From assembly GCA_949285915.1 (NCBI GenBank), contig CASDZW010000003.1, positions 1 through 64,000 on the forward strand: a stretch of DNA of 64,000 nucleotides, given 5' to 3'. Below the pieces are notes generated by a model. The model made no database searches, was not told the origin of the DNA, and saw only the letters and a list, made by a program, of their open reading frames with translations. This document shows positions 11,752 through 16,259 of the stretch, piece by piece (position 1 is the stretch's first letter; each line of letters opens with the position of its first letter). This DNA is from an uncultured Collinsella sp. GTDB taxonomy: Bacteria; Actinomycetota; Coriobacteriia; Coriobacteriales; Coriobacteriaceae. Made by a program: the position numbers and the translations under genes.

Positions 11752-12171
11752 GGGCGGCGCAGGGCGCCCCCGCCTGGCGGGGGCATGGATGTCCCGTCGC
11801 CACCGCCTTCGCACAACATCTTGGTCAAGAGGCAATCTGTGCCATTTGCCGAACGGTCAGCGGTCGATGTTGTGGAACAAATCTGGACGATAAAATCGCC
11901 ACGGGTGATACATGCGCAGGTGGGGGCGCCGGCGCCTCTCGGGTGCTTTGAGCGCCTAAACCAATTTATAATGTGTCCCGAATTAGTCCATTTATATCTA
12001 CCTGCAGAAACACAACATGTTGTGTTGTGCAGAATAAAATCATCAGCATATGGTGAACGCGCGTGCCGTAAGATGGATAGCACGCCGCAGCGCTGCCCCG
12101 CAAACGACGGGCCCGCGCCGCGGTTTTGCACTCAGCTAACCCTATACGAGGAGAATGGAAACGGGACTCGC
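11752..12171 (+). other. 420-base leader region of nrdD
   Basis: No gene is supported here. The left part has a GC-rich hairpin (11766-11784) without a T-run. A TATAAT occurs at 11967-11972 without a recognisable -35 element. The right part holds the NrdR-type operator described separately. The open frame running through the region into nrdD has no coding character and no recognised domain. No riboswitch consensus was recognised. Confidence 0.5.
12010..12056 (+). promoter_or_regulatory. Tandem NrdR-box operator overlapping the nrdD promoter
   Basis: ACACAACATGTTGTGT (12010-12025) is a perfect 16-base inverted repeat matching the NrdR-box pattern ACAC-W-ATAT-W-GTGT in its outer bases. A weaker half-matching box lies at 12041-12056 (TATGGTGA on its right half), and its centre is exactly 31 bases away, the usual helical spacing of paired NrdR boxes. 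A possible promoter, TTGTGC (12025-12030) with TATGGT (12049-12054) at 18 bases, overlaps both boxes, so NrdR binding would block it. Confidence 0.75.
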
Positions 12172-14394
12172 ATGAAGATCATCAAGCGCAGCGGTACCGA
12201 GGTCGCCTTCGACATCACCAAGATCGAGAACGCCATCCGTTCGGCCAACAAGGACGTGGCCGAGCACGACCGTCTGACCGAGCGCCAGGTCATCTACGCC
12301 TCGCAGAACGTTGCCGAGGCATGCGAGAACGCCGGCCATACCGTGTCGGTCGAGGAGATCCAGGACCTCGTCGAGGACGAGCTCATGAAGCTCGACCGCT
12401 TTGAGGTCGCGCGCAAGTACATCATCTACCGCTACGTGCAGAGCCTGAAGCGCCAGAAGAACACCACCGACGACAAGATCCTCGCCCTCATTGAGTGCAA
12501 CAACGAAGAGGTCAAGCAGGAGAACTCCAACAAGAACCCCACCGTGAACTCCGTGCAGCGCGACTACATGGCGGGCGAGGTCTCCAAGGACCTTACCAAC
12601 CGCGTGCTGCTGCCGGCCGAGGTCGTCGAGGCGCACAACGAGGGCATCATCCACTTCCACGACTCGGACTACTTCGCGCAGCACATGCACAACTGCGACC
12701 TCGTGAACCTCGAGGACATGCTGCAGAACGGCACGGTCATCTCCGGTACGCTCATCGAGCGCCCGCATAGCTTCTCGACCGCCTGCAACATCGCCACGCA
12801 GATCATCGCCCAGGTGGCCTCCTGCCAGTACGGCGGCCAGTCCATCTCGCTTACGCACCTCGCGCCTTTTGTTGAGGTCTCGCGCCAGAAGATCCGCCGT
12901 CAGGTGGAGGCGGAGCTTGCCGAGCTCGGCGTCGACGCGCCCGAGGAGAAGATTGCGAGCGTGGTGGAGGACCGCCTGCGCGACGAGATCCGCCGCGGCG
13001 TCCAGACCATCCAGTACCAGGTCGTGACCCTCATGACCACCAACGGCCAGGCGCCGTTCGTAACCGTGTTCATGTATCTGGGCGAGGCCCGCTCCGAGGC
13101 CGAGAAGCACGACCTGGCCATGATCATCGAGGAGACGCTCCGCCAGCGCTACGAGGGTGTCAAGAACGAGGCCGGCGTGTGGATCACCCCCGCGTTCCCC
13201 AAGCTCATCTACGTGCTCGACGAGGACAACGTCTACGAGGGCAGCCCCTACTTCTACCTCACGCAGCTCGCGGCCAAGTGCACCGCCAAGCGCATGGTGC
13301 CCGACTACATCTCCGCCAAGAAGATGCGCGAGCTCAAGCTCTCGAAGGGCGAGAAGCCGGGCGAGGGCGATGTCTACACTTGCATGGGCTGCCGCAGCTT
13401 CCTCACGCCCGACCGCTCGGGCAACGGCTACGACAACGTGGCCCGCGCCAAGAACTACGAGCCGGGCAGGCCCAAGTACTACGGTCGTTTCAACCAGGGC
13501 GTCGTCACCATCAACCTGGTGGACGTGGCCTGCTCCTCCGCGCGTGACGAGGACAAGTTCTGGCAGATCTTTGACGAGCGCCTGGAGCTCTGCCACCGTG
13601 CGCTGCGCTGCCGTCACGAGCGCCTGAAGGGCACGCTCTCCGACGCCGCGCCGATCCTTTGGCAGTACGGTGCGCTCGCGCGCCTCGACAAGGGCGAGAC
13701 CATCGACAAGCTCCTCTACGGCGGCTACTCGACTATCTCGCTCGGCTACGCCGGCCTCTACGAGTGCGTGCGCTACATGAAGGGCGTGAGCCACACCGAC
13801 GAGTACGGCCGCGACTTCGCGCTCGCCGTCATGCAGCGCATGAACGACAAGTGCGCCGAGTGGAAGGCTGCCGAGAACATCGACTACTCGCTCTACGGTA
13901 CGCCGCTCGAGTCCACGACCTACAAGTTCGCCAAGTGTCTGCAGCGCCGCTTTGGCATCATCCCCGGCGTGACGGACAAGGGTTACATCACCAACAGCTA
14001 CCACGTCCACGTGTCTGAGAAGATCGACGCCTTCGACAAGCTCAAGTTTGAGAGCGAGTTCCAGGCGCTCTCCCCGGGTGGCGCCATCTCGTATGTCGAG
14101 GTGCCCAACATGCAGGACAACCTCAAGGCTGTCATCCGCGTCATGCAGTACATCTACGAGAACATCATGTACGCGGAGCTCAATACCAAGAGCGACTACT
14201 GTCAGGTGTGCGGCTACGACGGCGAGATCCAGATTGTGGAGGACGATGGCAAGCTTGTGTGGGAGTGCCCCAACTGCCACAACCGCGATCAGGAGAAGAT
14301 GAACGTGGCGCGTCGCACCTGCGGCTACATCGGCACGCAGTTCTGGAACCAGGGCCGCACCGAGGAGATCCGCGACCGCGTGCTGCATCTGTAG
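12172..14394 (+). CDS. nrdD: Anaerobic ribonucleoside-triphosphate reductase (class III), 740 aa
   Basis: Reduces NTPs to dNTPs without oxygen using a glycyl radical. An ATP-cone allosteric domain occupies about residues 1-95 (MKIIKRSGTEVAFDITKIENAI). The catalytic barrel follows, with cysteines in CMGCRSF (about 403-406). A C-terminal zinc site (CQVCGYDG about 677 and CPNCHN about 698) precedes the glycyl radical loop RRTCGYIGTQFW (about 712-723). The ATG at 12172 opens the ATP cone exactly; longer versions of the frame add unrelated residues. The activase gene nrdG follows, separated by one unusual gene. Confidence 0.98.
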   Translation: MKIIKRSGTEVAFDITKIENAIRSANKDVAEHDRLTERQVIYASQNVAEACENAGHTVSVEEIQDLVEDELMKLDRFEVARKYIIYRYVQSLKRQKNTTDDKILALIECNNEEVKQENSNKNPTVNSVQRDYMAGEVSKDLTNRVLLPAEVVEAHNEGIIHFHDSDYFAQHMHNCDLVNLEDMLQNGTVISGTLIERPHSFSTACNIATQIIAQVASCQYGGQSISLTHLAPFVEVSRQKIRRQVEAELAELGVDAPEEKIASVVEDRLRDEIRRGVQTIQYQVVTLMTTNGQAPFVTVFMYLGEARSEAEKHDLAMIIEETLRQRYEGVKNEAGVWITPAFPKLIYVLDEDNVYEGSPYFYLTQLAAKCTAKRMVPDYISAKKMRELKLSKGEKPGEGDVYTCMGCRSFLTPDRSGNGYDNVARAKNYEPGRPKYYGRFNQGVVTINLVDVACSSARDEDKFWQIFDERLELCHRALRCRHERLKGTLSDAAPILWQYGALARLDKGETIDKLLYGGYSTISLGYAGLYECVRYMKGVSHTDEYGRDFALAVMQRMNDKCAEWKAAENIDYSLYGTPLESTTYKFAKCLQRRFGIIPGVTDKGYITNSYHVHVSEKIDAFDKLKFESEFQALSPGGAISYVEVPNMQDNLKAVIRVMQYIYENIMYAELNTKSDYCQVCGYDGEIQIVEDDGKLVWECPNCHNRDQEKMNVARRTCGYIGTQFWNQGRTEEIRDRVLHL

Positions 14395-14459: not shown

Positions 14460-14532
14460 TATAGTAGACATGCAAGCCCCGTGTGACCGCTGGATTCCAT
14501 GTCACCGGGGCATCGTTTTTTTGGAGGTGCAA
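14460..14532 (+). ncRNA. Candidate leader RNA or attenuator in front of the HEPN gene
   Basis: A possible -10 element TATAGT (14460-14465) is followed by an intrinsic-terminator-like hairpin. GCCCCG plus GTGAC (14476-14488) pairs with GTCAC plus CGGGGC (about 14500-14511), with one bulged base, and is followed by ATCG and eight T residues (to 14522). GGAGGT (14523-14528), the ribosome binding site of the HEPN gene, begins directly after the T-run. The arrangement of short RNA, terminator, then HEPN toxin-like gene recalls abiF-type RNA motifs and type III toxin-antitoxin loci. No tandem antitoxin repeats are seen, so an ordinary attenuator is also possible. Confidence 0.5.
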
Positions 14533-15669
14533 ATGACTCTGAGCGATAAGGAGCATGATGCACCTTCGGCATGGATGAAGAGGTGGCTTTCTGAGCCGCG
14601 TCTCAAAAGATATCTTGATGTCTGCCAAGGGGATTATGCTCGTGCGATGATGCTGTATGAGTGGAATCTCGATCTCGGCGCCGAGCTCATGAAGGACATC
14701 TCGTATTTTGAGGTTGCCCTGCGTAATGCTTACAACCAGACGATGTGCGAGCAGTGGCTGGGTGGCGAAAACTGGCTTTTTGATGCGCAATCACCCGTTA
14801 ACCTAGCATTGCCTCGCAAGACTCGTTCTGGAATGGTGCGTGATGCCAACGCATTGAACCGAAAGGCAATCAAGGACGCAACTCCGGCGGGCAGCCGTGC
14901 GGCATCTCTGAGCAGTGTTGTTGCGCGTTTGCCGTTTGGTTTTTGGGCTCATCTCTCAGACCGTGCGCACGAGCGCGTTCTTTGGATACCTTATTTGCAA
15001 CGTGCGTGGCGCAGAGGGACCAGCCGTGCTCAGCTCGATGCTCGGATTCGTTTGATCAATGAATGCCGGAATCGCATTGCCCATCATGAGCATCTATTCC
15101 ACCCCTCGAAGACCGAGCTTGAGCCTGCTGTTGTCGATCGTGTCGTCGTGGACTTGCTTTACCAACTGGTTTCCGAAGGGTCATGGTTGCTTTCTGATGG
15201 CGAGACGCGTGTTGAGCGATTCCTTCGCGAGCGTCCCTTCGAGGCCGTCATTTCTGGCGCTCCGTCTAGGGCCGATTCTTTCCAAGCTGAGGTAATTAAG
15301 GATTACTTTGCCATGTGGCTCACGCGCGATTTCTCTCGTTTCGACGAGCTGTTCTCGTCCTGTTGTCGGTACGAGGAATGCTGCGGGACCATTTATGAGG
15401 GCGCTGACGAGTTACATCGTTGGATTGCGCACATGCTCGAGGTGCAGCGCGTGACGGTGTGGGACATCCACGATGTCGTGCCCGCCGCGGACGGACGCAG
15501 TGTGACAGTTACGTGGACGTTTGCCGCAACCGAGCAGGAACCCTACATCTTCGACGGCTGCTCGCTCATTCATTTTGATGACGAGGGTCGTATCGACCGG
15601 GTGCGGGAGTTCAAAGCGGACCATGAGCGCTGTTTCCCACAGCGTAGAGAAGGGGATGACCGGGCGTGA
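14533..15669 (+). CDS. Abi-like HEPN protein fused to an NTF2/SnoaL-like domain, 378 aa
   Basis: The N-terminal part (about 1-240) resembles the Abi-like (Abi_2/AbiD/AbiF) family of phage-abortive proteins: an opening RLKRYLDVCQGDYARAMMLYEWN, the helix EVALRNAYN, PFGFWAHL, and the HEPN ribonuclease signature R-x4-H in RNRIAHHEHLF (R179, H184). The C-terminal part (about 255-370) reads as an NTF2/SnoaL-like cone domain (VIKDYFAMWLTRDFSRFDELF through SLIHFDDEGRI), which usually binds a small ligand or forms dimers. The gene sits between nrdD and nrdG and overlaps the nrdG start by 4 bases. Its codons look less GC-rich than those of nrdD, suggesting acquisition. Toxic RNase activity is inferred. 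Confidence 0.75.
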   Translation: MTLSDKEHDAPSAWMKRWLSEPRLKRYLDVCQGDYARAMMLYEWNLDLGAELMKDISYFEVALRNAYNQTMCEQWLGGENWLFDAQSPVNLALPRKTRSGMVRDANALNRKAIKDATPAGSRAASLSSVVARLPFGFWAHLSDRAHERVLWIPYLQRAWRRGTSRAQLDARIRLINECRNRIAHHEHLFHPSKTELEPAVVDRVVVDLLYQLVSEGSWLLSDGETRVERFLRERPFEAVISGAPSRADSFQAEVIKDYFAMWLTRDFSRFDELFSSCCRYEECCGTIYEGADELHRWIAHMLEVQRVTVWDIHDVVPAADGRSVTVTWTFAATEQEPYIFDGCSLIHFDDEGRIDRVREFKADHERCFPQRREGDDRA

Positions 15670-16259
15670 ACTACGCTGAGATCAAATACTCAGACATCGC
15701 CAACGGCGAGGGAGTGCGCACGTCGCTCTTTGTCTCCGGTTGCCGCCGTGGATGCCCGGGATGCTTCAACTCGGGTGCGTGGAGCTTCCAAGCGGGCGAG
15801 CCCTTCACCCGCGAGGTTGAGGACCAGATTATAAAGAGCTTGGACCACCCGTTCTGCGACGGCCTCACTGTGCTCGGCGGCGAGCCCATGGAGCCCGAGA
15901 ACCAGCTCGGTCTTGTGGACTTTCTCGAGCGCGTGCGCGATCGCTTCCCGCGGGGTGAGTCCGGCGCGCCCGCGAAGAGCATCTGGTGCTTTACGGGTGA
16001 CACGCTCGACGTGCTTATGCCGGGCGGACGTCACCATACCGAGGTCACCGACCGTATGCTCGACTGCATCGACATCCTGGTCGACGGCCCCTGGGTGCAG
16101 GAGCTCTACGATATCAGCCTCAGGTTCCATGGTTCTTCCAACCAGCGCCTGATCGATCTCAACGTCACGCGGGCCGCTGCTGCCAAGAAGGGCGTGAGCC
16201 TAGCGGAGGCCGTGGTTCCTTGGCGCGACGAGGAGGTCTATTCGACCCACTCTATGTAG
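15666..16259 (+). CDS. nrdG: Anaerobic ribonucleotide reductase activating protein, 197 aa
   Basis: A radical-SAM enzyme that installs the glycyl radical in NrdD. The iron-sulfur cluster motif CxxxCxxC appears as GCRRGCPGC (about residues 25-33), preceded by NGEGVRTSLFVSG, and VLGGEPMEPEN matches the SAM-binding GGEP motif. The GTG at 15666 overlaps the stop of the HEPN gene in GTGA, so nrdG translation is probably coupled to that gene. Length is a little above the usual 150-180 residues because of a C-terminal extension. Confidence 0.96.
   Translation: MNYAEIKYSDIANGEGVRTSLFVSGCRRGCPGCFNSGAWSFQAGEPFTREVEDQIIKSLDHPFCDGLTVLGGEPMEPENQLGLVDFLERVRDRFPRGESGAPAKSIWCFTGDTLDVLMPGGRHHTEVTDRMLDCIDILVDGPWVQELYDISLRFHGSSNQRLIDLNVTRAAAAKKGVSLAEAVVPWRDEEVYSTHSM

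Follow-up and report, generated by a model that had tools for sequence, protein, structure and literature searches.

AbiF systems, in which a HEPN toxin is paired with an RNA, are the proposed evolutionary source of Cas13. The C. difficile Abi_2 protein AbiFCd is toxic by means of R202 and H207 and is neutralised in cis and in trans by an ncRNA encoded upstream (PMC12373285), and a bulged part of the ncRNA obstructs the RNase site of PbAbiF, with AbiF also reported to process its own RNA (review, PMC12737573). In the 64,000-nucleotide stretch of uncultured Collinsella sp. DNA analysed here (contig CASDZW010000003.1, positions 1 to 64,000; hereafter the window, whose numbering is used for its features), we found a gene that shares with AbiF/AbiFr (PbAbiF 8vz6, AbiFCd-RCd22, RF03085) the Abi_2 domain, the R-x4-H motif and an AbiF-like fold, together with a short structured RNA lying directly upstream, in the same direction and with its own promoter, in the same gene order. 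It differs from them in having gained a C-terminal NTF2 domain and in its fixed site between nrdD and nrdG, AbiF being found at mobile or prophage loci. Type III ToxIN/CptIN systems have a similar logic, with an upstream RNA antitoxin acting on an RNase toxin and an attenuating hairpin between the two, but the protein here is a HEPN protein and not of the ToxN fold, and the RNA is a single unit and not a set of tandem repeats. The HEPN half also matches the HMMs of AbiD (PADLOC PDLC02344) and PD-T4-5 weakly (E 1.3e-4 and 3e-3), models which record no RNA partner and contain no NTF2 domain.

We consider it likely that the locus is an AbiF-like module, resident in the nrdD-nrdG operon, whose HEPN protein, a putative RNase and presumed toxin carrying a C-terminal NTF2 domain, would be neutralised by the RNA, the trigger and the function of the NTF2 domain being likewise presumed. 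This is a variant arrangement within AbiF toxin–RNA systems and not a categorically new one. Literature titles and abstracts gave no paper combining Abi_2 with SnoaL in a relevant sense and nothing linking nrdD or nrdG to genes of Abi or toxin–antitoxin systems, and a survey of HEPN proteins mentions neither SnoaL nor ribonucleotide reductase (PMC3710099).

The two-domain protein

The gene encoding the fusion (14533..15669, + strand, 378 aa) begins at an ATG preceded by a ribosome binding site and lies, as the initial annotation had described, between nrdD and nrdG, its stop overlapping the GTG start of nrdG by 4 bases. The upstream gene, nrdD, encodes an anaerobic ribonucleoside-triphosphate reductase (12166..14394, +; Pfam NRDD, E 3e-196, with ATP-cone and Gly_radical matches); its open reading frame runs from 11785 to 14394, and the start was put at 12166, where the alignment of relatives begins (residue ~128), which is probably the true start. 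The downstream gene, nrdG (15666..16259, +), encodes the anaerobic RNR activase, with Fer4_12/radical SAM Pfam matches. That nrdD and nrdG are usual neighbours was borne out in 21/21 fusion-free relatives, in which they are separated by a gap of 1-830 nt containing no HEPN, NTF2 or RNA.

The annotation of an Abi-like HEPN domain fused to an NTF2/SnoaL-like domain was upheld, as both domains exceed their Pfam cut-offs. The N-terminal Abi_2/HEPN domain (residues 26-189; 14608..15099, +) is matched at E 1.8e-6, with 28.8 bits against a gathering cut-off of 25.6, and it contains the proposed catalytic motif R179-N-R-I-A-H184 (15067..15084, +), of which R179, N180 and H184 are invariant in all 21 aligned relatives. 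AlphaFold2 gave a confident two-domain model with HEPN and NTF2-like folds (pLDDT 83.7 for the fusion, 88.3 for the HEPN half alone); the HEPN half was modelled separately since a Foldseek search with the whole fusion returned matches to the NTF2 half only. The sole credible PDB match of the HEPN model was PbAbiF with its bound ncRNA (8vz6; probability 1.00, TM 0.59, but E merely 0.037), and the same structure was also matched by the HEPN sequence profile (E 6e-5). On its sequence, the HEPN half is probably an RNase toxin. Its closest relatives are unfused modules at scattered loci with mixed neighbours, AbiEii-like and Abi_2 genes among them, and more distant relatives are plasmid-borne, a plasmid search giving homologues of the HEPN half only, at <60% identity. 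Searching IMG/VR with the fusion protein gave no relative, and no phage-defence context was found around the fusion at the nrdD-nrdG locus.

The C-terminal domain (residues 246-378; 15268..15666, +) is matched by Pfam SnoaL_2 over residues 256-356 (E 3.7e-14), and by Foldseek it resembles NTF2-like enzymes and isomerases (TM up to 0.84 by target). It has its fold and SnoaL_2 in common with SnoaL/NTF2-like proteins such as limonene epoxide hydrolase, polyketide cyclases and B. subtilis 1s5a, but with 11-23% identity to them it has no catalytic assignment, and here it is fused to HEPN. It would be a separately folded unit, with dimerisation or small-molecule binding as its probable role.

Occupancy of the nrdD-nrdG slot

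Full-length fusions were found in Coriobacteriaceae (the window, Collinsella sp. An2 [L003/G026] and G401 [L129]) and in Atopobiaceae (L004-L008, with near-copies in G128 and G295 that are 99.5-99.7% identical). Counting as distinct those with less than about 99% DNA identity to the others gives 8 genes, all 8 of which sit between nrdD and nrdG. In a tree, the fused HEPN domains fall on one side of a branch with support 92/91 and the unfused HEPN domains of Coriobacteriia on the other, which is most simply read as a fusion that arose once.

In addition to the 8 distinct cases in which RNA, HEPN and NTF2 are all present, the slot was found in three reduced states. One genome (G354, L051) retains the RNA with an internally deleted HEPN and a residual NTF2 frame; two (G244, L058; G266, L060) have lost the fusion gene and retain the RNA alone before nrdG; and two (G002, L002; G351, L048) have NTF2 alone, with neither RNA nor HEPN. 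Among the states observed, none had HEPN at this slot without the RNA. The RNA outlasting HEPN, and never the reverse, is what would be expected if the RNA neutralises HEPN, and the separable states (RNA with toxin, RNA alone, NTF2 alone) would document, in nature, the dependence between antitoxin and toxin. The RNA retained before nrdG, including its -10 box, may serve as an nrdG promoter. The HEPN half has been lost in three different ways (L051/G354, L002/G002 and L048/G351), which is useful for dating the fusion.

The stand-alone NTF2 genes of G002 and G351 diverge with a dN/dS of about 0.05 (dS being saturated), which indicates that NTF2 is functional without HEPN. We regard it as an extra domain that probably has its own role linked to the nrdD-nrdG locus, independent of HEPN. 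The initial annotation had tied the gene to anaerobic dNTP synthesis, and had noted that constant company with nrdG would favour housekeeping. The linkage is real, in 8/8 fusions and for NTF2 alone in two genomes, and the functional tie is our supposition from it; the housekeeping alternative is the better fit for NTF2 and a poorer one for HEPN, whose closest relatives are scattered and unfused. From position alone, a guard over anaerobic dNTP synthesis is possible: NTF2 might sense a ligand or NrdD/NrdG themselves, and any disturbance of class III ribonucleotide reductase, such as a phage commandeering nucleotide metabolism, would then free the RNA-neutralised RNase, and phages might answer with RNA decoys (L169, below). 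We think this extension rather unlikely as it stands. As a presumed RNA-guarded toxin with an accessory domain, fixed inside a core nucleotide-metabolism operon, the fusion makes it directly testable whether abortive infection is linked to dNTP supply.

In the nrdD-nrdG gap of ten loci (L004-L008, L048, L134, L135, L145 and L146) long palindromes were also seen, with variable stems and a constant GTGCTCAAACAGC...GAACTGCGCGCG core, which resemble a class of repeats or terminators widespread in Coriobacteriia.

The leader RNA

The leader of the fusion gene contains, in order, a -10 box TATAGT (14460..14465, +), which belongs to the presumed RNA promoter; a conserved RNA element GCAAGCCCCG...CGGGGCAT (14472..14513, +), the presumed antitoxin, within which a hairpin forms at 14476-14511 (-22.6 kcal/mol, z -2.6); a T-run (14516..14522, +); and the ribosome binding site GGAGG (14523..14527, +). 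The box, hairpin, T-run and binding site agree with the initial annotation. A simple promoter and terminator scan found no full consensus promoter in the window. Their conservation is beyond chance: upstream of 8/8 distinct fusions the 42-nt hairpin and the -10 box are almost identical, the box having the form TATA(G/C)T and lying a few nt ahead of the RNA, and the window has one occurrence of the core pattern where 0.00 were expected. Between the window and L003 the 42-nt element differs by 1 base, with the HEPN third codon positions 37% identical and the remaining leader not alignable by eye.

A covariance model of the RNA, built on seven fusion leaders, identified the element before unfused HEPN genes, at distances of about 20-200 nt, in many genera of Coriobacteriia and at unrelated loci. 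It is present before 28/30 of the distinct full-length HEPN genes examined in Coriobacteriia, fused or unfused, the two at which it is not recognisable (L046 and L050) being in fragmented or truncated contexts, and it still precedes 4/8 broken HEPN genes. Many of the unfused copies have a promoter, TTGTTA-17-TAAGAT, with its predicted start point at the hairpin. There are 1-2 copies of the RNA per genome and one hairpin unit per HEPN locus. Across 39 loci, near-duplicates among them, RNA and HEPN divergence are correlated (r 0.61, matched in 0/5000 permutations), for which common descent alone could suffice. Two points of the initial annotation were upheld: the leader as an RNA element in its own right, and the pairing of an AbiF-type HEPN protein with a separate structured RNA, the pairing at loci outside nrd as well.

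The hairpin had been called terminator-type, and it could be no more than the terminator of nrdD or an attenuator of nrdG, with the protein an Abi-like-domain accessory of anaerobic RNR housekeeping. Such an account would fit the T-run of the window's lineage, a possible intrinsic terminator or attenuator there, as well as the invariable position of the fusions between nrdD and nrdG, the persistence of RNA and -10 box directly before nrdG after fusion loss, and the purifying selection on stand-alone NTF2. The hairpin itself is real, but the T-run is confined to the Coriobacteriaceae fusions and is missing from the Olsenella copies, which read on CATTTTCGTATC, and from most unfused copies, so that termination finds no support as a general control mechanism. 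The presence of the RNA at many loci unrelated to this one, in front of unfused HEPN genes, also argues against this account, as does the conservation of the unpaired loop bases, which is roughly that of the stem, and we judge it to be quite improbable. It is very improbable that the leader is a riboswitch-like element responding to dNTPs or nucleotides and gating the fusion and nrdG: a conserved structured RNA in a 5' leader within an nrd context, its hairpin close to the ribosome binding site, would suit this, but the element is merely ~42 nt with one hairpin, its spacing to the gene is variable, and it travels with HEPN, including HEPN genes without an nrd neighbour, and not with nrdG.

Covariation was assessed after aligning 30 distinct RNA cores with MAFFT, blind to structure. 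In these, 97.6% of cells pair; with the partner shifted by 1-3 columns, 25-48% do. Cells changed on both sides at four pairs number 30 against 9.5 in shuffles (0/500). The second outer pair occurs as C-G, G-C and A-U, and the third inner pair as A-U, G-C and C-G; in several copies, however, the loop is short and may keep this third pair from closing. That the element is a DNA feature marking cassette insertion (a REP-like palindrome or recombination site) and not an RNA is likewise very improbable given its asymmetric conserved loop, its covarying pairs, the orientation and -10 box fixed relative to HEPN and its low copy number, even if two copies flank genes in three Collinsella loci and some orphan copies have no promoter.

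Searching Rfam with the leader gave chance matches only, RF03085 (abiF RNA) did not match it up to E 10, and the fusion-type RNA model found no match at Abi_2 genes of more remote Actinobacteria or of further phyla (L009-L023). The RNA family is therefore absent from Rfam and distinct from RF03085. The RF03085 consensus (CCCGCC..GCCUCUCAACGAUGC....GGCGGGU) has in common with the leader RNA the hairpin plan and CC(G/U)CU after the 5' arm, but the stems and loop differ and neither scores as the other, so homology of the leader RNA to AbiFr is not established. True RF03085 copies are present in sister genomes, one of them directly upstream of another Abi_2 gene (G357). With a different hairpin again in distant Actinobacteria, the theme of an RNA before HEPN is conserved and the RNA sequence clade-specific, and the AbiF branch of HEPN toxins gains an RNA family in abundant gut Coriobacteriia. 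This further hairpin, ACCCCGRCCG...CGYCGGGG, stands before the Abi_2 genes L013, L014, L016, L019 and L020 of other Actinomycetota, has no Rfam match and is probably another AbiF-like RNA family.

Predicted action of the RNA and its orphan copies

The most likely role of the leader RNA, as far as sequence comparison can indicate, is to keep the HEPN toxin switched off. The promoter just upstream would yield a hairpin RNA of ~42 nt, as a separate transcript or at the head of the fusion mRNA. Its predicted fold has an outer stem of 6 bp, an inner stem formed by UGAC and GUCA, and a loop with the conserved sequence CC(G/U)CUG...CA. This RNA would bind the HEPN dimer and block the R-x4-H RNase site; if its supply were lost, as in a transcriptional shut-off, free HEPN would cut cellular RNA and growth would stop. 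In the window's lineage the T-run after the hairpin may also curb read-through into toxin and nrdG, and in copies outside the Coriobacteriaceae fusions the RNA would perhaps be released by processing.

In many species of Collinsella (L061-L075) an exonuclease-like gene has an orphan copy of the RNA ahead of it, in some cases without a promoter, and paired copies flank a gene in L064, L072 and L073. As orphans persist in three of these genomes without any Abi_2 gene (G237, G082 and G319), the RNA could be a relic or serve a different purpose. Searches by blastn with the RNA found none in plasmids and annotated phages. The core pattern matched 16 IMG/VR contigs, about chance level by our own estimate, and the full outer stem folds in 3 of the 16 (P about 0.03, flank-swap control). 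In one of these contigs (L169:350-393; IMGVR_UViG_3300046557_000332) the hairpin lies in a four-tRNA array, Trp-Asn-[hairpin]-Gln-Lys, with a terminase gene near. No HEPN gene was found downstream of the phage-contig hairpins; they are possible decoy antitoxins, in numbers too small for a claim. Further RNA-like hairpins on phage contigs were seen at L161:3371 and L172:3031-3060.

Elsewhere in the window there is a lysine riboswitch (RF00168; 55738-55903, - strand, 56.9 bits). The window's genome (G000) has three more Abi_2 genes, at C7:65587-66228, C8:30749-31279 and C8:85774-86298, and the leader of the one on C7 (L091) is likewise rich in hairpins.
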